From assembly GCA_949879025.1 (NCBI GenBank), contig CATLBO010000002.1:20636-84635 (forward strand): DNA of 64,000 nucleotides. The letters are read 5' to 3'. Positions 8,628-38,524 of the stretch are shown piece by piece. The translations under genes and the position numbers were made by a program. Positions within the stretch are counted from its first letter, which is position 1, and each line of letters starts with the position of its first letter. Source of the DNA: an uncultured Hungatella sp. GTDB lineage: Bacteria; Bacillota; Clostridia; Lachnospirales; Lachnospiraceae. Below the pieces are notes generated by a model. It searched no databases. It was not told the DNA's origin and saw only the letters and a program-made list of their open reading frames with translations.

Positions 8628-9326
8628 ATGACCCCACCTATCCTTCACCAATACACCATCCTTGTAGATTTTTTGGGTAAAGCACTGGGCCCGGACTATG
8701 AAATCGTACTTCATGACATCACTGCCGAGCCCAGCAGAATCATTGCCATTGCCAACGGTCACATAAGCGGCCGTGCTATAGGGAGCCCCACTACCAATTC
8801 CGCATTGCAGACATTGGCTGCTAACCCCTATAAAACCAATGATTTCCTATACAATTATCAGATATCCACAAAAGACGGACGTATCCTTCGAGCCTCTACC
8901 ATGTTTATAAAAGATGATGACGGAAATCCCATCGGACTTCTGGGAATCAATTTTGACGATGCCCGCTATCGGGAGCTTTATACAAAAATGCTTTCCGTCA
9001 TCCACCCTGACCAGTTTTTAAAACCACCTCTTGTGCCTTTTCCGGCTGTTCCTGCATCCCTGGAGGGTATTTCCCTGCAGCCCTATACCCTTGCGGATGA
9101 TTTCTCCATGGATATCTCTACTCTGATGGAAAAATCTTTTGACAGCGTTACCGCCTCTATAAGCACCCCAATGGAACGTTTAAATCAACAGGAAAAACGG
9201 GATATCGTTCAAAAACTTCAGGAACGGGGGATGTTCAAGCTAAAAGGAGGAATCTCTTTTGTGGCTAAGCGGCTTTCCTGCTCCCCCGCAACCGTGTATC
9301 GCTACTTAGGCGAGCTGGAAAATTAA
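8628..9326 (+). CDS. YheO-type PAS/HTH transcriptional regulator (copy 1)
   Basis: A 232-residue protein. Residues about 5-115 form a YheO-like PAS domain (YEIVLHDI, GRAIGSPTTN, DGRILRASTMFIKDDDGNPIG). The C-terminal 60 residues form a helix-turn-helix domain (SFVAKRLSCSPATVYRYLGEL). It is closely similar throughout to the protein at 26388-27086. It sits upstream of the ygeW/BMP-transporter operon, so it is the probable local regulator, perhaps sensing a purine or purine product. The ligand is not known from sequence. A terminator-like hairpin follows. Confidence 0.85.
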   Translation: MTPPILHQYTILVDFLGKALGPDYEIVLHDITAEPSRIIAIANGHISGRAIGSPTTNSALQTLAANPYKTNDFLYNYQISTKDGRILRASTMFIKDDDGNPIGLLGINFDDARYRELYTKMLSVIHPDQFLKPPLVPFPAVPASLEGISLQPYTLADDFSMDISTLMEKSFDSVTASISTPMERLNQQEKRDIVQKLQERGMFKLKGGISFVAKRLSCSPATVYRYLGELEN

Positions 9327-9360
9327 ATTTAGGGCAAGTTTAACAGTTTTCTCATTTCTG

Positions 9361-9389
9361 CCGCCCTTTGGGCTTTTCCCAAAAGGCGG
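9361..9389 (+). terminator. Probable terminator after the first YheO-type gene
   Basis: A 12-base stem with one mismatch (CCGCCCTTTGGG / CCCAAAAGGCGG) has a five-base loop and is followed by an AT-rich run, though not a pure U tract. Confidence 0.55.
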
Positions 9390-9589
9390 TATATTTATAG
9401 CTTTTTATAAATAGATGTCATAAATACTCTCCCGCTGCTGCTGGGCGGAATTTCGGGATCTCCTGTAGTTACGGCCTTACAGTTTGTTTTTTATCTGATT
9501 TCCCTGCTTTTATATGTTTTCTATATTTTTTATAGAAAATTTCTGCTTTTTCTGTACTTTTTATCTTATAGAAAAATAAGAAAAATTTT

Positions 9590-9646
9590 ATTATAATGAT
9601 ATTTTCTTATATTTTTGTTGACTTCTCACAATCAATATATTATAAT
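9590..9646 (+). promoter_or_regulatory. Promoter with conserved AT-rich upstream box, ygeW/BMP operon
   Basis: TTGACT (9618-9623), 17 bases, TATAAT (9641-9646). The 28 bases before the -35 (ATTATAATGATATTTTC...) closely match the same position of the ygeX promoter (34439) and resemble the YheO-2 promoter (26157). Similarity with the ygeX locus continues into the transcript leader. The box may be an UP element or an operator of the YheO-type regulators. Confidence 0.7.
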
Positions 9647-9705
9647 TTCCTTAAAGAGATGATAAAACAGCCAATCCAATGTATGCGAAAAGGAGGATCG
9701 CATTC

Positions 9706-9735
9706 ATGTGCCAGTCTCAATTAATTCCCAACTGA
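9706..9735 (+). pseudogene. Nine-codon stub resembling the start of ygeX
   Basis: After AAAAGGAGGATCG there is ATG followed by codons for MCQSQLIPN and a stop. The intact ygeX start at 34556 has the same surroundings (AAAGGAGGATTGTATC, ATGTGC) and encodes MCNSQGAS. The matching promoter, leader and ribosome site argue that a ygeX gene once stood here and was deleted down to its first codons. It might now serve as an upstream open frame translationally coupled to ygeW. Confidence 0.6.
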
Positions 9736-9758
9736 AACACGATGCTAAAGGAGGAACT

Positions 9759-10952
9759 ATGGATACATTTCAGAACTATATTGACAAGTTAAATTCGCTG
9801 CACTTTAAAAATATGTACAACGGAGATTTCTTCCTTACCTGGGAGAAAACTTATGAGGAACTGGAAGCAGTATTTACGGTTGCTGATGCCCTTCGGTTTT
9901 TAAGGGAGCGCAATATTTCCACAAAAGTGTTTGAAAGCGGTCTGGGCATTTCTCTGTTCCGTGACAATTCTACACGGACACGGTTCTCTTTTTCCTCTGC
10001 ATGTAATTTGCTGGGACTGGAAGTGCAGAACTTGGATGAAGGAAAATCCCAGGTTGCCCACGGCGAAACAGTCCGCGAAACTGCCAACATGATTTCTTTT
10101 ATGGCTGATGTTATCGGCATCCGCGATGACATGTATATTGGAAAAGGCAACAAGTATATGCATGAAGTTGTGGATTCTGTTATCCAAGGCAAACGGGACG
10201 GTATTTTGGAGCAGAAACCTACTCTGGTAAATCTCCAGTGCGACATTGACCATCCCACTCAGGCCATGGCGGACATGCTCCATATTATCCATGAATTCGG
10301 CAGTATAGAAAACTTAAAGGGAAAGAAACTGGCCATGACCTGGGCTTACTCACCTTCTTATGGGAAGCCCCTGTCAGTTCCCCAGGGGATCATTGGACTT
10401 ATGACCCGCTTCGGTATGGATGTGGTGCTGGCTCATCCTGAGGGCTATGAAGTATTTCCGGAAGTGGAAGCTGTAGCTGCTGCAAATGCTGCCAAATCCG
10501 GCGGTTCTTTTTCAAAGACAAACCAAATGGCGGATGCTTTTAGGGACGCAGATATTGTATATCCGAAAAGCTGGGCTCCCTTTGCCGCCATGGAAAAACG
10601 GACTGAATTATATGGAAACGGCCATATGGACGGCATCAAAGCTCTTGAAAAAGAGCTGCTGGCACAAAATGCACTGTATAAAGACTGGACCTGCACAAAA
10701 GAGCTTATGGCATCTACCAGAAACGGAAAAGCGCTCTATATGCATTGCCTCCCAGCTGACATCTCTGGCATTAGCTGCAAAGAAGGTGAGGTGGAGGCCT
10801 CAGTATTTGATCGTTATCGCAATCTTCTGTATAAAGAAGCCAGCTTTAAGCCTTATGTTATTGCCGCCATGATTTTTCTCGCAAAATTTGCTGATCCTGC
10901 AGATGTTCTGAAAAATCTGGAAAGCAAGGGAACCCCAAGGGTTTTCAGGTAA
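9759..10952 (+). CDS. ygeW: YgeW-type knotted carbamoyltransferase (copy 1)
   Basis: A 397-residue transcarbamoylase-fold protein with the carbamoyl-phosphate motif DNSTRTRFS (about residue 75) and HCLPADISG near residue 330. The YgeW family has a trefoil knot, and its members occur in anaerobic purine-degradation clusters. They are thought to release carbamoyl phosphate from a carbamoylated nitrogen compound. The start is the ATG at 9759 after AAAGGAGG; the track's start 17 codons earlier lies inside the ygeX-like stub. It is almost identical over long stretches to the copy at 37331. It heads the BMP transporter/racemase/amidohydrolase genes. Confidence 0.88.
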   Translation: MDTFQNYIDKLNSLHFKNMYNGDFFLTWEKTYEELEAVFTVADALRFLRERNISTKVFESGLGISLFRDNSTRTRFSFSSACNLLGLEVQNLDEGKSQVAHGETVRETANMISFMADVIGIRDDMYIGKGNKYMHEVVDSVIQGKRDGILEQKPTLVNLQCDIDHPTQAMADMLHIIHEFGSIENLKGKKLAMTWAYSPSYGKPLSVPQGIIGLMTRFGMDVVLAHPEGYEVFPEVEAVAAANAAKSGGSFSKTNQMADAFRDADIVYPKSWAPFAAMEKRTELYGNGHMDGIKALEKELLAQNALYKDWTCTKELMASTRNGKALYMHCLPADISGISCKEGEVEASVFDRYRNLLYKEASFKPYVIAAMIFLAKFADPADVLKNLESKGTPRVFR

Positions 10953-10970: not shown

Positions 10971-11041
10971 CTGGCCGCTTCCCATGTCTCCCCAGGAAAC
11001 TAAATGGGTAACATCTAAGATTTCCAAGGGTAAGCGGCCAG
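10971..11041 (+). other. Candidate structured RNA or long hairpin between ygeW and the BMP receptor gene
   Basis: CTGGCCGCTT (10971-10980) pairs perfectly with AAGCGGCCAG (11032-11041). Inside, CCCAT (10981) can pair with ATGGG (11004-11008). No U tract follows, so it is not a standard terminator. It might be a processing or stability element, or a ligand-sensing leader of the transporter genes. Confidence 0.45.
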
Positions 11042-11141: not shown

Positions 11142-12119
11142 ATGAAAAAAAAGTTAGCGCTGCTATTAGCATCATCCATAGTTCTTACAACATTGGCCGC
11201 CTGTGGAAACGGTAATAACAGTAAGGCCGATAATCCTGAATGGAAAGGCAGCGTGGCCATGGTCATGCCTGGTCTGATTACAGATGAAGCATTTAATCAA
11301 TACACATATGAAGGCATGGTAAGAGCCAGCAAAGAACTTGGCATCAAGACAGCCTACAGAGAGGAAGTTGCGCAGGATGAACAGATTGAAGTGCTCCGCC
11401 AGTTTGCACAGCAGGGATATGAGACGATTATTGGACAGGGCGGGCAGTTTGGCGAGGCCCTGCAGACGGTGGCCAAAGAATTTCCTGATAAAAATTTCAT
11501 TTTCAGCGTAGCGACAGACACTGGCGGCGTTCCCAATCTGACAGCTTCCACCGTCAGTTACAGCCATGCAGGTTATTTAGCCGGCATTATGGCTGCATCA
11601 GCTACCAAAAATAAAAAGGTGGCATTTGTTACAGGAGAGTGGTATGACCCCCATCGTCAAATGGAGGCAAGTTTTTACAAAGGTGTTGAATATGTTGACC
11701 CAAATATTGAGTCTACAGCTATAACCACTGGTTCCTGGTCTGATGTTACTAAAGCCAGAGAGGCATCTCTTGCATTGATTGCCAGCGGTTATGATGTACT
11801 GTTCTTTAATCTGGATGCAGCCTATGTAGGCGTTCTGGCGGCAGCACAGGATTCCCGTGATGTGTATGTGGTTTCTGCTGTTGTTGACTCGTCTGATATT
11901 GCACCTGATGTAACCATTGGAAGTGTTGTGTTTAACTGGGAAGAATTAGGATATCAGGAATGCATCGGCTCTCTTTCAGACGGAGGGACTCATGTACTGG
12001 GCATCGCCGACAATGGCATCCTTCCTGTGACCACAGATTTGCTCTCTGACGAAGGCAAAGCAGCTGTGGATACGGCTGTAGAAGACTTAAAAGCCGGAAA
12101 AGTCGATATTGATCCTTGA
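11142..12119 (+). CDS. BMP/PnrA-family nucleoside ABC transporter substrate-binding lipoprotein
   Basis: The signal peptide ends in the lipobox LAAC. The mature domain has BMP-family features (VAMVMPGLITDEAFNQ, GYETIIGQGGQFGEAL, KVAFVTGEW, DVLFFNLDAAYVGVL). BMP-family receptors bind purine nucleosides and related bases and deliver them to the YufOPQ-type importer encoded next. I start at the ATG at 11142 after CAGGAGGAAACG; the track's earlier start would add 31 non-signal residues. It stands in a purine/hydantoin gene neighbourhood, so a purine breakdown product such as an allantoin-like or hydantoin compound is a possible ligand (inference). Confidence 0.85.
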   Translation: MKKKLALLLASSIVLTTLAACGNGNNSKADNPEWKGSVAMVMPGLITDEAFNQYTYEGMVRASKELGIKTAYREEVAQDEQIEVLRQFAQQGYETIIGQGGQFGEALQTVAKEFPDKNFIFSVATDTGGVPNLTASTVSYSHAGYLAGIMAASATKNKKVAFVTGEWYDPHRQMEASFYKGVEYVDPNIESTAITTGSWSDVTKAREASLALIASGYDVLFFNLDAAYVGVLAAAQDSRDVYVVSAVVDSSDIAPDVTIGSVVFNWEELGYQECIGSLSDGGTHVLGIADNGILPVTTDLLSDEGKAAVDTAVEDLKAGKVDIDP

Positions 12120-12131
12120 CATCTTATACTG

Positions 12132-12160
12132 TAGGCAGCATCCTCTGCGGATGCTGCCTA
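12132..12160 (+). terminator. Strong hairpin between receptor and ATPase genes
   Basis: A perfect 12-base stem (TAGGCAGCATCC / GGATGCTGCCTA) with a five-base loop lies 12 bases after the receptor stop, without a U run. It probably protects the receptor mRNA or partly ends transcription, giving more receptor than transporter. Confidence 0.6.
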
Positions 12161-12182
12161 TTAAAAAAGGAGGCGAACTCAT

Positions 12183-13703
12183 ATGGAAGAACCTAAATTT
12201 GCTTTACAGATGACTGATATTACAAAGCGTTTTCCCGGCGTTCTGGCAAATGACCGCATCAGTCTTGATTGTAAAAAAGGGGAAGTTCTGGGGCTGTTGG
12301 GAGAAAACGGCGCAGGCAAGACAACACTGATGAATGTCTTATATGGTATGCATCAGCCAGACAGCGGAAAAATCCTCATAAATGAAAAGGAGGTAGAAAT
12401 TACATCTCCGTCAAAGGCTATTGAGCTTGGTATCGGCATGGTTCACCAGCACTTTAAACTGGTGGAAACCCTTACAGTTTTAGAGAACATTGTCCTTGGC
12501 ATTCCTTCAAACAAAGTGTTTCTTGACCTGGAGCCTATACGCAGGCGGCTTTTAGAACTGTGCCAAGAGTATGAATTATATGTAGACCCGGATGCCGAAG
12601 TGTGGAAACTGCCTGTGGGCCAGCAGCAGTGGGTGGAAATCCTGAAAGCCCTGTACAGAAATGCCCAGGTTTTGGTACTGGATGAACCTACTGCTGTACT
12701 GACCCCTTCCGAGAGCGACCAACTGTGCCGCGCTATCCGGCGCCTTACAAGTGAAGGCCGCTCTATTATTTTTATCAGCCATAAACTGAGGGAAGTGGTG
12801 GAGATTACCGACAGGGTTACGATTATCCGTGACGGCAAGCTGGTAGGAACCATACCTACCTCGGAGGCGACTCAGGCAAAACTTGCCCATATGATGGTGG
12901 GGCGTCCTGTTTCAATCGACCGCCGTTCCCGTCCGGCTTTACAGCAGAAAAAGCCTGTACTGGTTATGAAGGATGTAAATGCTCTTGACGAACGAGGGAT
13001 TCAGGCTTTAAAAAATTTTAATCTGACGGTTCATGCCGGCGAGATCGTCGGGGTTGCCGGAGTAGACGGCAATGGACAGAAGGAACTGGCTGAGTGTATT
13101 TCCGGCCTTAAAAAACCTGTAAGCGGAACGATTTCTGTCAATGACACCCTGATTACAGATGTTGTGGCAGACCCGAAGTTTATCGGATTTATTCCTGAGG
13201 ATCGCCAGAAAACAGGACTTGTGATGGATTTCAGCGTTGCCGAAAATCTGATTATCAAAGAGTATGACAAGGAGCCTTATGCGGAAAAAAGGCTGCTTAA
13301 TCTTCAGAATATCAAAGAGCATGCCCAGGACATGATTAAAAAATATGGTATCAAGACCCCTACAGACACAGTTAAAGTAAGCACGCTCTCCGGAGGAAAC
13401 CAGCAGAAAGTCATTATTGCCAGAGAACTGGATTCGGAACCGATTCTGGATATTGCATGCCATCCTACCCGCGGCCTGGATATGGGAGCCGTTGCAGGGG
13501 TTCATGACGTGTTGATGAAAGAGCGTGAGCGCGGGGCTGCCGTTTTGTTTGTCTCTGCGGAATTACAGGAGATCCTGGCTTTAAGCGACCGCATCATTGT
13601 ATTATTCCGCGGGGAAATCATGGGCGAGGTAGATGGAGATACAGCGGATGCCTTTACCATTGGCCAGCTGATGTTAGGACAGGCACTGGAGGAAAAAACA
13701 TGA
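12183..13703 (+). CDS. Nucleoside-type ABC transporter ATP-binding protein (two NBDs)
   Basis: The protein of 506 residues holds two nucleotide-binding domains, as in YufO/NupA. The first has GENGAGKT, a LPVGQQQWVEIL signature region and LVLDEPTAVL. The second has the degenerate Walker A GVDGNGQKE, signature LSGGNQQKV, and a Walker B in which ACHPTRGLD replaces the usual exporter form. These are typical of BMP-dependent purine nucleoside importers. It overlaps the first permease gene by four bases. Confidence 0.88.
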   Translation: MEEPKFALQMTDITKRFPGVLANDRISLDCKKGEVLGLLGENGAGKTTLMNVLYGMHQPDSGKILINEKEVEITSPSKAIELGIGMVHQHFKLVETLTVLENIVLGIPSNKVFLDLEPIRRRLLELCQEYELYVDPDAEVWKLPVGQQQWVEILKALYRNAQVLVLDEPTAVLTPSESDQLCRAIRRLTSEGRSIIFISHKLREVVEITDRVTIIRDGKLVGTIPTSEATQAKLAHMMVGRPVSIDRRSRPALQQKKPVLVMKDVNALDERGIQALKNFNLTVHAGEIVGVAGVDGNGQKELAECISGLKKPVSGTISVNDTLITDVVADPKFIGFIPEDRQKTGLVMDFSVAENLIIKEYDKEPYAEKRLLNLQNIKEHAQDMIKKYGIKTPTDTVKVSTLSGGNQQKVIIARELDSEPILDIACHPTRGLDMGAVAGVHDVLMKERERGAAVLFVSAELQEILALSDRIIVLFRGEIMGEVDGDTADAFTIGQLMLGQALEEKT

Positions 13704-14806
13704 AAACAGAAAAAAAGCCAAATATTACTACGATCCCTTTTTTGGGAGACATTATCTTATCCGGCTCCCGGACCCTCACCGGCATAGCCCTGGGACTTTT
13801 GACCAGCGGCATTCTTATTGCATTGTCCAATGCTAATCCTCTTGTGGCTTATGGAGCTATGATCAAAGGTGCATTTGGAGATATCTATGCTTTCTGTAAT
13901 GTGCTTGTACGAGTATCTCCTTTGCTTTTAGGTGGTATGGGAGTTGCCATCGGCAATAAAGCAGGCATATGGAATACAGGTATCGAAGGGTATATGTATC
14001 TGGGGGCTATTGGTTCAGGGCTTGTGGCGATCCAGGACTGGGGGCTTCCTTCTGCCCTTCATATTCTTCTCGCTGTTATTGTGGGAATGGCTTTTGCAGC
14101 TGTCTGGGGGCTGATTCCCGGATACTTAAGAGCCCACAGAGGCGTCAATGAAGTTACCTGCACCATTATGCTGAATTATGTTGCAATATACCTGACCAAC
14201 TGGCTGGTATCAGATGCCGGATTTTTTGCGGAATCAGGTGCCTTTTTCCCTATGTCTAAAATCTTTCAGGACAGTGCGCAGCTGCCGATTTTATTGAGAG
14301 GTACAAGCCTGCATCCGGGAGTTTTTGTGGGGATTATTGTCTGTCTCATATTTTTCTTTCTTTTAAAGTACACTCCTTTTGGCTTCCGAACCCGTATGCT
14401 TGGAGGAAACCCCAATGCTGCTCGCTACAGCGGAGTGGATATTAAAAAGCAGATTGTCCTTGTTATGGTGCTGGGTGCAATGCTTGGAGGCCTGGGCGGA
14501 GCCATTGAGGTTATCGGCTTAAGGCACCGGGTGTACAGCGATTTTGTTACTGGCGTTGGCTACGAATGTATTGCTGTAGCGCTTCTGGCCGGAGGAAATC
14601 CTGTCGGAGTTATTTTTGCTGGTTTCTTTTTTGCGATACTGAAAGTAGGCGGTGCCACTATGTCTATTGAAACCGGCGTCAGTTCATCCATGACCAGCAT
14701 TATTATGGCTTTATGCGTACTGTTTGTTATTGGCGTGGGATTGACAGACAATCATCGGGTTAAGAAAAAATCAAATAAAGCTGACGTTAAACAGAAGGAG
14801 GAATAA
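13700..14806 (+). CDS. Nucleoside-type ABC transporter permease 1
   Basis: A 368-residue membrane protein of the BPD_transp_2 family (YufP-like) with about eight to ten hydrophobic segments. It has the motif GNKAGIWNTGIEGYMYLGAIG and the conserved loop GGNPNAARYSGVDIKK. It pairs with the next gene as the two-subunit channel. Start ATGA overlaps the ATPase stop. Confidence 0.88.
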   Translation: MKTEKKPNITTIPFLGDIILSGSRTLTGIALGLLTSGILIALSNANPLVAYGAMIKGAFGDIYAFCNVLVRVSPLLLGGMGVAIGNKAGIWNTGIEGYMYLGAIGSGLVAIQDWGLPSALHILLAVIVGMAFAAVWGLIPGYLRAHRGVNEVTCTIMLNYVAIYLTNWLVSDAGFFAESGAFFPMSKIFQDSAQLPILLRGTSLHPGVFVGIIVCLIFFFLLKYTPFGFRTRMLGGNPNAARYSGVDIKKQIVLVMVLGAMLGGLGGAIEVIGLRHRVYSDFVTGVGYECIAVALLAGGNPVGVIFAGFFFAILKVGGATMSIETGVSSSMTSIIMALCVLFVIGVGLTDNHRVKKKSNKADVKQKEE

Positions 14807-14808
14807 TT

Positions 14809-15735
14809 ATGTCGTATGATATTATCTTTAGCTGGCTGCAAGCGACTCTGCGCTGGTCTGCTCCCCTGCTTTTAGTAGCTGTCGGCGAAATATTTTCTGA
14901 GCGTTCGGGAATTATTAATATGGGAATTGAAGGCATTATGCTGTGCGGTGCATTGTGCGGCATTGCCGCTTCGTTCTATTCACAAAACATTCTCGTGGCA
15001 GTACTGGCTACCATAGCGCTTGGAGCCATAATGGGCCTTGCCGTGGCTTATCTGACAGTATCCCGCCGCACAAATCAGGTTGTTACAGGGCTTATGGTAA
15101 ATATGCTTGCCACTGGGGCAACCAACCTGTTGTTTGCTATGATGTCGGAAACCCGCAGCACCCGTGTAGGTACATTCCCCATTATATTTCCTCAGGCAAT
15201 GCAGAAGATACCGGTTTTGGGTGAAATCTTCTTTTGCCAGCCCATTAGTACCTGGATTGCCTTCATTCTTCCTTTTATAGCTGCGGTTGTACTGTATAAG
15301 ACGAAATGGGGGCTGAATGTACGAGCTGTGGGAGATCATCCTCAGGCAGTTGCCACAGCCGGGCTTTCTGTTATAAAGATTAAGTATCAGGCAGTTATCT
15401 GCAGCGGTATTTTTGCTGCTTTAGGCGGCTGCGTTCTGACCCTGGGAGAAGTAGGCTATTTTGCATCCGGCGGAATGACTGGAGGAAGAGGATTTATTGT
15501 AATGGCTGCCGTTGTGGTCGGAGGATGGGACCCGCTTAGAACTGCCATTGCCTGTATTATTTTTGGTGCAGCGGATGCGGCGCAGCTCCGTCTTCAAGGT
15601 ATGGGATCTGTGATACCATATCAGTTTTTGCAGATGCTGCCTTATTTGATTACTGTTGTCGCTCTCACTGGCATGGTTAAGAGTTCCCATGTACCGAAAA
15701 CCTGGGGGGCTGCCTATGACCCTGACAGCCATTAA
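14809..15735 (+). CDS. Nucleoside-type ABC transporter permease 2
   Basis: A 308-residue permease of the YufQ type. It has the family motif SERSGIINMGIEGIMLCGALC, the loop AVGDHPQAVATAGLSV, and a glycine-rich final region (GGMTGGRGFIVMAAVVVGGWDP). It follows the first permease after two bases and is followed by the racemase gene after eight bases, so a single operon is likely. Confidence 0.88.
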   Translation: MSYDIIFSWLQATLRWSAPLLLVAVGEIFSERSGIINMGIEGIMLCGALCGIAASFYSQNILVAVLATIALGAIMGLAVAYLTVSRRTNQVVTGLMVNMLATGATNLLFAMMSETRSTRVGTFPIIFPQAMQKIPVLGEIFFCQPISTWIAFILPFIAAVVLYKTKWGLNVRAVGDHPQAVATAGLSVIKIKYQAVICSGIFAALGGCVLTLGEVGYFASGGMTGGRGFIVMAAVVVGGWDPLRTAIACIIFGAADAAQLRLQGMGSVIPYQFLQMLPYLITVVALTGMVKSSHVPKTWGAAYDPDSH

Positions 15736-15743
15736 GGAGAGAA

Positions 15744-16436
15744 ATGAAACGATTATTAATTGTTAACCCAAACAGTTCTGAAAAAATGACCCAGGATATC
15801 AGAAACACCGTATCTTATGGTATTGATAAAGATTTCTCAATTTATGTAACTAAAACACCAGGCAGCCCAGATGTTTTGGAAAGCTTTGCTGATTATACAG
15901 AGGCTGGCAGGGAAGTAATCTCTTTCCTGAAAGGTATGACGGCCCAGGGAGCATTTCCATATGACGGAGTCTTATTGGCCTGCATGGGCGATCCCTGTTT
16001 ATATGGGGCTAAAGAGGTGTGTCCTGTCCCTCTTATCGGCATTGCGGAAGCGGGTATTTCTACTGCCCTTTTAACTGGTTACAAATTTTCTATTCTGGCT
16101 TCCTCCAATAAGGCTAAGCCAATGATGGAATCCATGGTCATGACATATGGACTTATGGCCCGTCTTGCTTCTGTTGAGACGTTTGGCGTTCCGATTGAGG
16201 ATTTTATGCAGGATGAGAAAAGGCTGTGTGCTTATATTAGGGAAGCCTCGAAAAAGGCTGTCAGCAATGGAGCTGATGTGCTTTTGCTTGGATGCGCCGG
16301 CATGACCATGGTTCAGGACATGCTTTCTGAATTGTCGGATATTCCGGTTATTGACCCGATTAAAGCTGGCCTGGAACAGCTGAAAGGAATTTTAAGAGGC
16401 GGTTTTTCTGTTTCCCGCAGCGGCCTTTATGCCTGA
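15744..16436 (+). CDS. Asp/Glu/hydantoin racemase family protein
   Basis: A 230-residue two-lobed racemase with the opening VNPNSSEKMT and both catalytic cysteines (LLACMGDP near residue 76, LLGCAGMT near residue 186). Relatives interconvert enantiomers of hydantoins or allantoin. Placed directly before a hydantoinase-like amidohydrolase, it probably supplies the right enantiomer of a ring compound brought in by the BMP transporter. Substrate identity is not shown by sequence. Confidence 0.82.
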   Translation: MKRLLIVNPNSSEKMTQDIRNTVSYGIDKDFSIYVTKTPGSPDVLESFADYTEAGREVISFLKGMTAQGAFPYDGVLLACMGDPCLYGAKEVCPVPLIGIAEAGISTALLTGYKFSILASSNKAKPMMESMVMTYGLMARLASVETFGVPIEDFMQDEKRLCAYIREASKKAVSNGADVLLLGCAGMTMVQDMLSELSDIPVIDPIKAGLEQLKGILRGGFSVSRSGLYA

Positions 16437-16473
16437 ACCGCACTGCAGCATAGCAGAAAGAAAGGAAATGATT

Positions 16474-17988
16474 ATGTCAAAAATGATTATTAAAAACGGC
16501 GCCTTGGTATCTTCCAGTAAAGTCTGCAAAAAGGATATTTATATTGAGAACGGAAAAATTAAAGGAATCGGAGAGCCTGGGGATTTTCTGGATGAGGAAA
16601 AAAATGCCGAAGAAATATATGATGCAAAAGGAAATTACGTGCTTCCTGGACTTATTGAACCTCATATGCATATAAAGGCGCCTTTGGGAGGGATTGTTGA
16701 CATTCTGGATTTTGACAGCGCCAGTGTATGCGCAGCCTATGGCGGGGTTACTGCGTTTATGGATTTTTCCTCTACGCTTCCAGGGGATTCCCTGACAGCT
16801 GCCGTAGAAGCGCGGAAAGAGGAGATGCATACTTCTAAACTTGATTATTCTCTCCACTGCAAAGTGGTGAATCTTGCAGATGCCCAGGATATTGCAGGCG
16901 CCATGGCTGCAGATGCTGCCTTTGCAAAGGATAAAAACGAAAGAACTATGGCCGCAGTCCAGGAGGCAAATGAAAGGGTTAAGGCCCAGGTAAAAGCCAG
17001 GCTGGAAGAAATACCGAATATTGTTAAAAACGGAAAGATCCCTACATTTAAGCTGTTTATGACATATCGGAAAGCTAATGTTATGATTGATGATGTTTCA
17101 ATGCTTAAGGTCATGGCTGCGGTCAGGGATGCAGGAGGCCGATGTGGATTTCATGCAGAAAGCAATGCCATCGCAGAGTATAATGAAGAACTTTTTGAAC
17201 AGGAAGGCAAGCTGGATTGGCGCTATTTTGCGGAATATAAAGGAAATCTATGTGAGGCAGAGGCAGTCCGCCGGGTACTTTACTATGCGGAACTTCTCAA
17301 GGCTCCCGTGTATTTTTTCCATCTCTCTACAAAGGAAGCTATTGAGGCAGTAAAAGAGGCACGAAAAAAAGGGATTGATGTTATTGCGGAAACCTGCTGT
17401 CATTATCTGGCTTTTACCAAAGAGAAAAATGAGGGAGAAGACGGAATCCTCTATCTGATGAGTCCTCCGCTGCGCACAAAGGATGATCAGGAGGCTTTGT
17501 GGCAGGCTGTTAAAAATGACGATATCAAAATTGTAAGCTCTGACAACTGCACATTTCCCCGCACCATGAAGGAAGCTCCTTTGACGGACAATAAGCCGGA
17601 TTTCCGTAAGCCTATCAGCGGCGTTTCTGGCCTGGAAGAACGGTTTGGAGTTTTGATGAGGGCTGTTAATGAAGGGAAAATTGGAATTCAGGATTTAGTC
17701 CGTGTTGCCTGCGAGAATCCTGCAGTCTATTTTGGATGTGGAAACCGCAAAGGATTTCTTAAAGAAGGATATGACGCAGATATTGTTGTTGTGGACAGAA
17801 TGAAACAGGTTACTTTAAACAGGGAATCTCTTCATTATCCTAAGCAGCTGGAATATGCACTTTATGAAGATATTGAGGTCTTAGGGTATCCTGTCACAAC
17901 AATCCGCCGGGGAGAGTATCTTGTGAAAGACGGCGTTTATAATGAGAATGCTTCCTGCGGTCTTTTTATTGAAAGAGAACTTGTTTAG
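16474..17988 (+). CDS. Hydantoinase/dihydropyrimidinase-like amidohydrolase
   Basis: A cyclic-amidohydrolase fold with the metal motif EPHMHIK, a carbamylated-lysine candidate in IPTFKLFMTYR, later ligands GFHAES and FFHLS, and the SSDNCTF catalytic aspartate region. Compared with HyuA at 27174 it carries about 40 extra charged residues (KDKNERTMAAVQEANERVK...) before the lysine motif. The start is the ATG at 16474 after AAAGGAA; the ORF track start overlaps the racemase. It likely opens a hydantoin, allantoin-like or dihydropyrimidine ring. It is the last gene of the operon and is followed by a strong terminator. Confidence 0.82.
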   Translation: MSKMIIKNGALVSSSKVCKKDIYIENGKIKGIGEPGDFLDEEKNAEEIYDAKGNYVLPGLIEPHMHIKAPLGGIVDILDFDSASVCAAYGGVTAFMDFSSTLPGDSLTAAVEARKEEMHTSKLDYSLHCKVVNLADAQDIAGAMAADAAFAKDKNERTMAAVQEANERVKAQVKARLEEIPNIVKNGKIPTFKLFMTYRKANVMIDDVSMLKVMAAVRDAGGRCGFHAESNAIAEYNEELFEQEGKLDWRYFAEYKGNLCEAEAVRRVLYYAELLKAPVYFFHLSTKEAIEAVKEARKKGIDVIAETCCHYLAFTKEKNEGEDGILYLMSPPLRTKDDQEALWQAVKNDDIKIVSSDNCTFPRTMKEAPLTDNKPDFRKPISGVSGLEERFGVLMRAVNEGKIGIQDLVRVACENPAVYFGCGNRKGFLKEGYDADIVVVDRMKQVTLNRESLHYPKQLEYALYEDIEVLGYPVTTIRRGEYLVKDGVYNENASCGLFIERELV

Positions 17989-26387: not shown

Positions 26388-27086
26388 ATGACCCCTTCCA
26401 TCCTCCATCAATACACACTTTTAGTAAATTTTCTCGGCAAAACTCTTGGCCCTGACTATGAAGTGGTACTTCATGATATTACCTGCGAACCCAGCAAAGT
26501 CATTGCCATTGCCAACAGCCATATCAGCGACAGGACTGTAGGCAGCCCTACCACCAATGCTGCCCTGCAGATGCTCGCCGCAAATTCCTACAAAACCAAC
26601 AATTACTTGTATAACTACCAGGTATCCACAGAAGACGGACGTATCCTCCGCGCTTCCACCATGTTCATCAAAGATAACGACGGCAGCCCTATTGGGCTTC
26701 TGGGAATTAATTTTGATGACAGCCGATACAAAGATTTCTGTAAAACGCTTCTTACCAATATTCACCCTGATGAGTTTTTAAAAGTAATCCCTGCCTTTTC
26801 TCCAACCAGTACCTCTTTCTTGGAAAATCCGGCAGCCCAGCCAGACTCTCTGTCCGACGATTTTTCCATGGATATATCCACTCTAATGGAGAAATCTTTT
26901 AACACTGTTACCGTCTCCTTAGCCACTCCATTGGAACGTTTAAATCAGCAGGAAAAAAGGACTATTGTCCAAAAGCTGCAAGAACGGGGCGTTTTCAAGC
27001 TGAAAGGCGGTATTTCGTTTGTTGCCAAACGTCTCTCCTGTTCCCCGGCCACTGTGTACCGTTACTTAGGCGAACTGGAAAACTGA
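26388..27086 (+). CDS. YheO-type PAS/HTH transcriptional regulator (copy 2)
   Basis: It has the same length (232) and domains as the protein at 8628: an N-terminal YheO-like PAS domain and a C-terminal HTH (SFVAKRLSCSPATVYRYLGEL). The variable linker (about residues 130-160) is where the two copies differ most. It lies between the xdh-nfn operon and the permease-ssnA-ygfK-hyuA operon, transcribed divergently from xdh. A role in switching purine genes on or off is likely. The signal it senses is unknown. Confidence 0.85.
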   Translation: MTPSILHQYTLLVNFLGKTLGPDYEVVLHDITCEPSKVIAIANSHISDRTVGSPTTNAALQMLAANSYKTNNYLYNYQVSTEDGRILRASTMFIKDNDGSPIGLLGINFDDSRYKDFCKTLLTNIHPDEFLKVIPAFSPTSTSFLENPAAQPDSLSDDFSMDISTLMEKSFNTVTVSLATPLERLNQQEKRTIVQKLQERGVFKLKGGISFVAKRLSCSPATVYRYLGELEN

Positions 27087-34419: not shown

Positions 34420-34438
34420 GCATTTTTAATAATTTTTT

Positions 34439-34494
34439 ATTATAATAAAAATTTTTTATTTTTCTGTTGATTTTTCAAAATTCCATGCTATAAT
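34439..34494 (+). promoter_or_regulatory. Promoter with conserved AT-rich upstream box, ygeX operon
   Basis: TTGATT (34467-34472), 16 bases, TATAAT (34489-34494). The upstream box ATTATAATAAAAATTTTTTA aligns with those at 9590 and 26157. Leader similarity with the ygeW-1 locus continues past the -10 (CCTTA..GAGA.GA.AAAA). Confidence 0.7.
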
Positions 34495-34555
34495 GACCTT
34501 AGGGAGACGACAAAATAACCAATTGAAACGCTCAATTTTAAAGGAGGATTGTATC

Positions 34556-35806
34556 ATGTGCAACTCACAAGGGGCTTCCATTAAGTGGACCCTCAACCAT
34601 ATTCCGAAGAGCGATGACAAGCAGCTTCCGAATATGTCTCTTAAGGAAATGAAGAAAGCCAGCGATTTTCACAAAAGCTTTCCGCAATATTCCGTAACCC
34701 CTCTTACCCGGCTTTCAAGCCTGGCTGAGTACCTGGGACTGAAGCGTCTTTATGTAAAAGATGAATCTTACCGATTCGGCCTTAACGCATTTAAAGTGCT
34801 GGGAGGCTCTTATGCCATTGCAAGGCATATTGCCCAGGAGCTTGGCAAAGATGTAAGCCAGGTTCCATACAATGTCCTTACTTCTAAGCATCTTAAAGAT
34901 GAATTTGGCCAGGCAACCTTCTTCACTGCCACTGACGGAAACCATGGCCGGGGTGTTGCATGGGCCGCCAACAAGCTGGGACAGAAATGTGTAGTCAGAA
35001 TGCCCAAGGGAACCACTCAGACCCGTCTGCAGAACATTGCCAAGGAAAATGCCACGGTTACCATTGAAAATCTTAACTATGACGACTGTGTCCGCATGGC
35101 AGCCAAAGAGGCTTCTGAGACGAAACGGGGCATTATGGTACAGGACACAGCCTGGGAAGGATATGAGGAGATTCCCACTTGGATTATGCAGGGCTACGGC
35201 ACTCTTGCCATGGAAGCTGATCAACAGCTTTCCGCAGACGGAAGCCGCCCTACCCATATTTTCATACAGGCTGGCGTAGGTTCTCTTGCAGGTGCTGTAA
35301 TCGGTTATTTTGCAAATCGTTTTAAAGAAAATCCTCCTGTTATGGTGGTTGTAGAAGCAAAAGCTGCAGATTGCCTTTATCAGTCCGCAATGCAGGCTGA
35401 TGGCAGCCGGGTAAATGTCACAGGTGATATGCTTACCATTATGGCCGGACTTGCCTGCGGGGAGCCGAATACGGTTTCCTGGGATATTTTAAGAAATCAT
35501 GCGGACGCATTTGTTTCCTGTCCGGACTGGGTAAGCGCCAACGGAACACGTATTTACGGCGCTCCCATAGGTAATGATGACCGAGTGATTTCCGGTGAAT
35601 CCGGCTCCGTAACCTTGGGCCTGGTCCATGCGCTGATGACTAATCAGCAATATAAAGAACTTAAAAATGCGCTGAATCTGAATTCCAGTTCGGAAGTTCT
35701 TCTTGTATCGTCCGAAGGCGATACTGACCCAGATCGCTACCGTGAAATTACATGGGAAGGACTGTGCGGGACTCAGAAAAAGCCTTTTGCAGATTTACAA
35801 AGCTAA
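34556..35806 (+). CDS. ygeX: Diaminopropionate ammonia-lyase (YgeX)
   Basis: A PLP fold-type II enzyme with the lysine in LNAFKVLGGSYA and substrate/phosphate loops TATDGNHGRGVAW and GVGSLAGAV. It converts 2,3-diaminopropionate to pyruvate and ammonia. In purine clusters diaminopropionate is a late breakdown product. The ATG at 34556 after AAAGGAGGATTG is chosen; the track's start 21 codons earlier overlaps the promoter. About 416 residues, typical for the family. It heads the ygeX-ygeY-ygeW-carbamate kinase operon. Confidence 0.93.
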   Translation: MCNSQGASIKWTLNHIPKSDDKQLPNMSLKEMKKASDFHKSFPQYSVTPLTRLSSLAEYLGLKRLYVKDESYRFGLNAFKVLGGSYAIARHIAQELGKDVSQVPYNVLTSKHLKDEFGQATFFTATDGNHGRGVAWAANKLGQKCVVRMPKGTTQTRLQNIAKENATVTIENLNYDDCVRMAAKEASETKRGIMVQDTAWEGYEEIPTWIMQGYGTLAMEADQQLSADGSRPTHIFIQAGVGSLAGAVIGYFANRFKENPPVMVVVEAKAADCLYQSAMQADGSRVNVTGDMLTIMAGLACGEPNTVSWDILRNHADAFVSCPDWVSANGTRIYGAPIGNDDRVISGESGSVTLGLVHALMTNQQYKELKNALNLNSSSEVLLVSSEGDTDPDRYREITWEGLCGTQKKPFADLQS

Positions 35807-37330: not shown

Positions 37331-38524
37331 ATGAAAACATTACAGGATTATATTGACAAATTAAATAAGTTAAATTTTAAGGACATGTACAATGGCGACT
37401 TTTTCCTTACCTGGGAAAAGACGGATGAAGAGCTGGAAGCAGTGTTCACCATTGCTGATGCCCTTCGTTTCATGAGAGAAAACAACATTTCCACTAAGGT
37501 GTTTGAAAGCGGCCTGGGAATTTCCTTGTTCCGTGACAATTCCACCCGTACTCGTTTCTCATTTGCATCCGCCTGCAATCTGCTGGGCCTGGAGGTTCAG
37601 GATCTGGATGAAGGCAAATCCCAGGTGGCACACGGTGAGACAGTCCGTGAAACTGCCAACATGATCTCTTTCATGGCTGATGTAATCGGCATCCGTGATG
37701 ATATGTACATCGGAAAAGGCAACAAATATATGCATGAAGTGGTTGACTCCGTAACACAGGGCAATAAAGACGGCATTCTGGAACAGAAACCGACCCTTGT
37801 TAATTTACAGTGCGATATTGACCATCCTACACAGGCCATGGCCGATATGCTCCACATTATCCACGAGTTTGGCGGCGTTGAAAATTTAAAAGGCAAAAAG
37901 CTGGCCATGACCTGGGCTTACTCTCCTTCCTATGGAAAACCTTTGTCTGTTCCCCAGGGCATTATCGGCCTGATGACCCGCTTTGGCATGGATGTGGTAC
38001 TGGCTCACCCAGAAGGTTATGAAGTATTCCCGGAAGTTGAGGACGTGGCTGCTGCCAATGCAAAGAAATCCGGCGGTACATTTACCAAGACCAACAATAT
38101 GGCAGAGGCCTTTAAAGATGCTGACATCGTATATCCAAAGAGCTGGGCTCCATTTGCGGCTATGGAGAAAAGAACTGAGCTTTACGGCAACGGAGACACG
38201 GAAGGCATCAAGGCTCTGGAAAAGGAACTTTTGGCTCAGAATGCACAGCACAAGGACTGGGCCTGTACAGAAGAGCTTATGGCAACTACGAAAAACGGAA
38301 AGGCACTTTACATGCACTGTCTCCCGGCTGACATCTCTGGTGTCAGCTGCAAAGAAGGGGAAGTGGATGCAACAGTATTTGACCGCTACAGAGACCCGCT
38401 GTACAAGGAGGCCAGTTTTAAGCCTTATATTATTGCAGCTATGATTTTCCTTGCAAAATTTGCTGATCCGGCTGACGTTCTCAAAAAGCTGGAAGAAAAA
38501 GAAACCCCAAGAGTTTTTAAATAA
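37331..38524 (+). CDS. ygeW: YgeW-type knotted carbamoyltransferase (copy 2)
   Basis: It has the same 397-residue length and motifs as the copy at 9759 (DNSTRTRFS, HCLPADISG), with long identical runs such as the region around GIRDDMYIGKGNKYMHEVVDS. Here it is followed by carbamate kinase, so it most likely makes carbamoyl phosphate that is turned into ATP. RBS AGGAGG sits six bases before the start. The 172-base gap after ygeY carries no clear promoter. Confidence 0.9.
   Translation: MKTLQDYIDKLNKLNFKDMYNGDFFLTWEKTDEELEAVFTIADALRFMRENNISTKVFESGLGISLFRDNSTRTRFSFASACNLLGLEVQDLDEGKSQVAHGETVRETANMISFMADVIGIRDDMYIGKGNKYMHEVVDSVTQGNKDGILEQKPTLVNLQCDIDHPTQAMADMLHIIHEFGGVENLKGKKLAMTWAYSPSYGKPLSVPQGIIGLMTRFGMDVVLAHPEGYEVFPEVEDVAAANAKKSGGTFTKTNNMAEAFKDADIVYPKSWAPFAAMEKRTELYGNGDTEGIKALEKELLAQNAQHKDWACTEELMATTKNGKALYMHCLPADISGVSCKEGEVDATVFDRYRDPLYKEASFKPYIIAAMIFLAKFADPADVLKKLEEKETPRVFK

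Follow-up and report, generated by a model that had tools for sequence, protein, structure and literature searches.

The ygeX-ygeY-ygeW operon serves the reductive degradation of uric acid, and the roles of YgeX, YgeY and YgeW are taken here as in that pathway, in which YgeW removes the ureido group by phosphorolysis (PMC12507026). In all relatives whose operon was covered far enough, ygeW follows ygeX-ygeY. Outside the clade from which our sequence comes, the type of promoter that precedes ygeX in our sequence is mostly found before a PAS_6/HTH_22-like regulator gene that is succeeded by ygeX-ygeY-ygeW-arcC (genomes L130, L132, L045, L053, L062, L076, L081 and L083), and it is therefore a promoter of the operon head rather than of ygeX alone. 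Within the source clade, the head gene of the operon is ygeX itself. The promoter module of these Lachnospiraceae comprises an A/T dyad CTAAAAATTTTTTTAG, TATTGATTTT, TATGATG, and AGRGAGAC at the transcript start; judged on sequence, this module at the head of regulator-ygeX-ygeY-ygeW-arcC is a candidate element of a uric acid regulon.

The stretch of DNA analysed here (hereafter the window, 64,000 nucleotides) is part of a 3.79-Mb draft genome (G000). It holds a main uric acid cluster, with an xdh-like gene, an amidohydrolase gene, ygfK, ssnA, pbuX, ygeX, ygeY, ygeW2 and arcC, and, about 24 kb upstream of it, a second locus with dauR1 and ygeW1 followed by a PnrA-type transporter operon. The features that concern us are as follows.

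8628..9326, + strand: dauR1, regulator with YheO-like PAS (PF08348) and HTH_22 (PF13309) domains (Pfam, tree, identity to dauR2 and to the G009 orthologue)
9360..9389, + strand: inverted repeat GCCGCCCTTTGGG..CCCAAAAGGCGG 3′ of dauR1, probable dauR1 terminator (read from the sequence; kept in G009)
9618..9646, + strand: sigma-70-type promoter, TTGACT-17-TATAAT, homologous to the ygeX promoter
9647..9705, + strand: 5′ leader CCTTAAAGAGATGATAAAACAGCCAAT.., homologous to the ygeX leader, with the ribosome site AGGAGGAT at 9691-9698
9706..9735, + strand: remnant of a ygeX start, ATGTGCCAGTCTCAA; the first five codons of the nine-codon frame MCQSQLIPN-stop (hereafter the stub) are homologous to ygeX
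9759..10952, + strand: ygeW1, second knotted carbamoyltransferase gene, frame intact, fast-evolving (TIGR03316, 766 bits)
11142..17988, + strand: downstream operon encoding a PnrA/Bmp-type binding protein, an ABC ATPase, two permeases, an Asp/Glu/hydantoin racemase and an amidohydrolase (Pfam)
26388..27086, + strand: dauR2, paralogue of dauR1; in G003 and G005 the only dauR gene stands at this place (Pfam, identity, tree)
34435..34570, + strand: source-type sequence, the intact ygeX promoter, leader and first codons
34556..35806, + strand: ygeX (diaminopropionate ammonia-lyase), intact (TIGR03528, 622 bits)
37331..38524, + strand: ygeW2, the ygeW copy of the main operon (TIGR03316, 797 bits)

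Homology between the ygeW1 leader and the start of ygeX

A preliminary description of this DNA had claimed that the promoter box, leader, ribosome site and the codons ATGTGC ahead of ygeW1 match those of ygeX, and had proposed an alignment of the two regions. The alignment of positions 9585-9722 with 34435-34570 bears this out: it is colinear over the promoter (-35 box TTGACT at 9618-9623, -10 box TATAAT at 9641-9646, spacer 17 bases), the leader, the ribosome site and five codons, with a local alignment score of 112. This score was reached by none of 2000 dinucleotide shuffles (maximum 60), and the upstream regions of 29 other genes in the window scored at most 46. The part below the -10 box, to which A/T-richness contributes less, scored 55 by itself, against a shuffle maximum of 36. 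Moreover, when the whole 64-kb window was scanned for the 27-base leader pattern TATAATNNNNTTANNGAGANGANAAAA with up to 3 mismatches allowed, two sites were found where 0.03 were expected, one before ygeW1 and the other before ygeX.

The coding bases take part in this similarity. ATGTGC lies at 9706-9711, ahead of the ygeW1 ATG at 9759, and the stub reads ATG TGC CAG TCT CAA TTA ATT CCC AAC TGA where ygeX begins ATG TGC AAC TCA CAA (MCQSQ- versus MCNSQ-), such that 9 of the 12 bases after the ATG match in fixed register (binomial P about 4e-4). The nine-codon frame described earlier was thus found at the coordinates expected. The 5′ end is homologous to that of an intact gene beyond chance, coding bases included, as befits the remnant of a duplicated operon. 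Similarity to ygeX stops at about codon 5. The 38 bases between this codon and ygeW1 match neither ygeX nor ygeY nor their spacers beyond shuffles, no spacer sequence of the ygeY-ygeW type precedes ygeW1, and alignment against shuffles detected no further remnant of ygeX (past codon 5) or of ygeY at the junction.

Aligned with ygeX leaders from elsewhere, the ygeW1 leader scored 112 with that of its own genome, 83 with that of G005, 77 with that of G003 and at most 47 with those of other genera; by sequence, it is nearest to the ygeX leaders of its own clade (G005, G003 and its own genome). The ygeX leaders of G009, G005 and G003 are 97%, 84% and 81% identical to the window's ygeX leader, and in all three ygeX starts MCN. 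In other genera ygeX begins differently, L083 being the sole exception. A search for copies of the leader gave strong matches in the genus only before ygeX and at the ygeW1 locus. In the family, the two best matches (L130 and L132) stand before a regulator gene followed by ygeX; those of the weaker family matches that were inspected proved to be unrelated A/T-rich stretches and were discarded.

Descent of ygeW1 and dauR1, and the nearest species

The ygeW1 product is a YgeW over its full length (TIGR03316, residues 4-394, cut-off 500 bits). A longer ygeW1 starting at an upstream in-frame GTG (9708; 414 amino acids) was considered and rejected, as the YgeW family starts at 9759. The two copies in the window share 79.6% DNA and 89% protein identity, with silent sites saturated. 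In the DNA tree ygeW1 falls into one group (98/100 support) with ygeW2 and its counterparts in G009, G005 and G003, its position inside the group being a polytomy, and the protein tree agrees weakly (82/73). There are 43 amino acid differences between ygeW1 and ygeW2, against only 6-9 between ygeW2 and the others of the clade. Out of 261 positions at which 73 other YgeW proteins all agree, 7 are altered in ygeW1 and none in ygeW2. The gene is still under constraint, as it keeps an intact frame and differs mostly at third positions. The gene dauR1 is 75% identical to dauR2 and 96.6% identical to its G009 orthologue, and falls into one polytomy with dauR2 and with dauR from G003 and from G005. 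The neighbours ygeW1 and dauR1 are therefore paralogues of genes of the same operon and of similar age, as expected around a remnant of a duplicated operon. The leader, ygeW1 and dauR1 go back to roughly one common point at the clade base.

Greater detail came from G009, the sister species (also a draft assembly), in which the whole neighbourhood is present in the same order at 86-99% protein identity. Here the interval between dauR1 and pnrA is only 496 bases long, and contains the promoter and leader, ATGTGCCAGTCTCAATT, then GAACCCCAAGGGTTTTCAGGTAA, then a spacer and pnrA. The first 17 bases of the stub are identical in the two species, and GAACCCCAAGGGTTTTCAGGTAA matches the final 23 bases of ygeW1 exactly. 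Since the 3′ end of ygeW1 is present, G009 once had this gene, and in the one draft assembly available it has lost it by a deletion of about 1207 bases (window positions 9723-10929) that ends in the stub. Because G009 keeps both the stub start and the ygeW1 end, the stub start predates the split of the two species. In both, the promoter and the transporter operon have been retained, and therefore the promoter probably now serves that operon.

Several smaller observations were made on the intervals around ygeW1. A stretch of about 116 bases (about 9391-9507), between the dauR1 terminator and the promoter, is absent from G009; it was rejected as a gene remnant, since no match turned up in the genus or among the loci compared. 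A dyad CTATATTTTTTATAG (9521-9535), which lies upstream of the ygeW1 promoter, reads CCATATTTTTTGTGG in G009, where one arm pair has changed on both sides (T/A to C/G) with the dyad kept, and it is a possible operator. Between ygeW1 and pnrA there is an inverted repeat, CTGGCCGCTT ... AAGCGGCCAG (10971-11041), which is partly kept in G009.

Apart from a weaker match at 9569, no consensus promoter other than that at 9618-9646 was found on the + strand between 9300 and 11200, and neither a consensus promoter nor a simple terminator was found between ygeW1 and pnrA. We therefore infer one transcript from this promoter through ygeW1 into the transporter operon, probably under the control of DauR1. 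Given the ureido chemistry of YgeW, the transporter operon may take up or process a related compound, and is possibly linked to purine or hydantoin breakdown. Among the genomes searched, this operon is found only in the window genome and G009.

Origin of the ygeW1 locus

The segment dauR1-promoter-stub-ygeW1 is best read, from its sequence, as a second copy of a dauR-promoter-ygeX-ygeY-ygeW unit that would have lost ygeX and ygeY. It is read as a reduced copy because genome L071, of another genus, keeps the full layout (dauR followed by ygeX-ygeY-ygeW, with 437 bases between them that contain a promoter of this type), and because ygeW1 and dauR1 are paralogues of similar age. Near the base of the clade there would have been two copies of the unit, the second having arisen by duplication or been acquired from a close relative; the branching at this point is a polytomy in both the ygeW and dauR trees. 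The second copy would then have lost the whole of ygeY and everything in ygeX after codon 5, which would have placed the promoter, leader, ribosome site and first five codons of ygeX directly before ygeW1. The promoter would now transcribe ygeW1 and the following genes for the PnrA-type ABC transporter, racemase and amidohydrolase. The stub would probably be translated as a short functionless frame; 23 bases separate its stop from ygeW1, which is preceded by a ribosome site of its own. In G009 decay went one step further, the deletion of ygeW1 putting promoter and stub directly before the transporter operon. Taken as a whole (second copy, internal loss, reuse of the promoter and further decay in G009), we regard this as the probable history of the locus.

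The main alternative is that ygeW alone was copied and landed behind a separately copied fragment carrying dauR along with the promoter and opening codons of ygeX, so that ygeX and ygeY were never complete here. Both the missing trace of ygeX past codon 5 and of ygeY, and the missing ygeY-ygeW spacer before ygeW1, are in its favour. However, such a capture needs two copying events that meet at one point, whereas, given the L071 layout, one block with a later internal deletion is enough, and G009 shows that clean internal deletions ending in the stub do occur at this locus. We consider capture unlikely, though worth keeping in view. No intact ygeX or ygeY was found at the ygeW1 site in the genomes searched: a pnrA-based search for the locus in 299 genomes of the family, 291 of the class and 26 of the genus returned only G000 and G009, the latter without ygeX. 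The preliminary description had offered duplication followed by deletion of ygeX, or promoter capture, and had pointed to relatives as the place to look for an intact ygeX at this position. The proposed link to ygeX holds, and duplication is the best reading of the shared age, the L071 layout and the G009 stub; the relatives yielded no such gene, the L071 layout being in another genus only, and past codon 5 nothing of ygeX, nor any of ygeY, supports the deletion.

The same description had suggested that the stub may act as a leader peptide, and a working leader peptide or translational-coupling element controlling ygeW1 would fit its strong ribosome site, its ATG and the closeness of its stop to ygeW1. 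Identity between the window and G009 is 96.9% from the ribosome site to codon 5, higher than in the promoter part (90.7%) or in the spacer that follows ygeW1 (88.5%); as the first of these stretches has only 32 bases, the support is weak. However, the frame in G009 has 15 codons with another end and no ygeW1 behind it; the peptides (MCQSQLIPN here, MCQSQLNPKGFQVSF in G009) diverge after codon 6 and so are not conserved. Moreover, the frame has no telling codons, the leader RNA folds no better than shuffles (z-score +1.2), and no terminator-like site, attenuator or Rfam family was found in the leader. A small hairpin (ATGCGA..TCGCAT, 9682-9708) that carries the stub ribosome site in its loop is present in both species. 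Control by the stub thus seems improbable, and since the peptide end differs between the species and no attenuator is visible, we treat the stub as a remnant, although one that is probably translated. Finally, convergence of unrelated AT-rich promoters bound by the same regulator has next to nothing to recommend it, since, although both promoters lie near DauR-type regulators and have A/T-rich dyads (by eye) upstream of the -35 box, the two regions still match past the -10 box, in the leader, at the ribosome site and over codons 1-5, and it is the ygeX of this clade that they resemble most.

More speculatively, the promoter with its start codons might behave as a cassette that forms a stable landing stub: a duplicated uric acid operon would lose its genes front first, while promoter and start codons were reused for a newly joined uptake operon, the short frame perhaps tuning translation. 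We hold this to be rather doubtful.

Comparison with known systems

Duplication followed by deletion is in itself an ordinary mechanism. What the locus offers is a readable series of operon rewiring, from the full unit in L071, to the unit lacking ygeX and ygeY here, to that lacking ygeW1 in G009; promoter and start persist at every step. The tie between a uric acid pathway promoter and the operon for a PnrA-type transporter, racemase and amidohydrolase suggests a related substrate.

Of the described systems, a leader peptide or attenuator resembles the stub in that a short frame with a good ribosome site precedes a structural gene, but here the peptide is not conserved, attenuator structure is missing and the gene that follows differs between the two species. 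The likeness to a gene remnant left by duplication and internal deletion is closer, as there is a homologous 5′ end lacking the rest of the gene, a paralogue downstream and a second deletion at the stub in the sister species; the intermediate with ygeX and ygeY was, however, not found in the genomes searched. With the ygeX-ygeY-ygeW operon of reductive uric acid degradation, the locus shares the promoter, leader and start of the ygeX operon head and, by TIGR03316, a YgeW gene, and it differs in lacking ygeX and ygeY and in running on into the genes for the PnrA-type ABC transporter, racemase and amidohydrolase.
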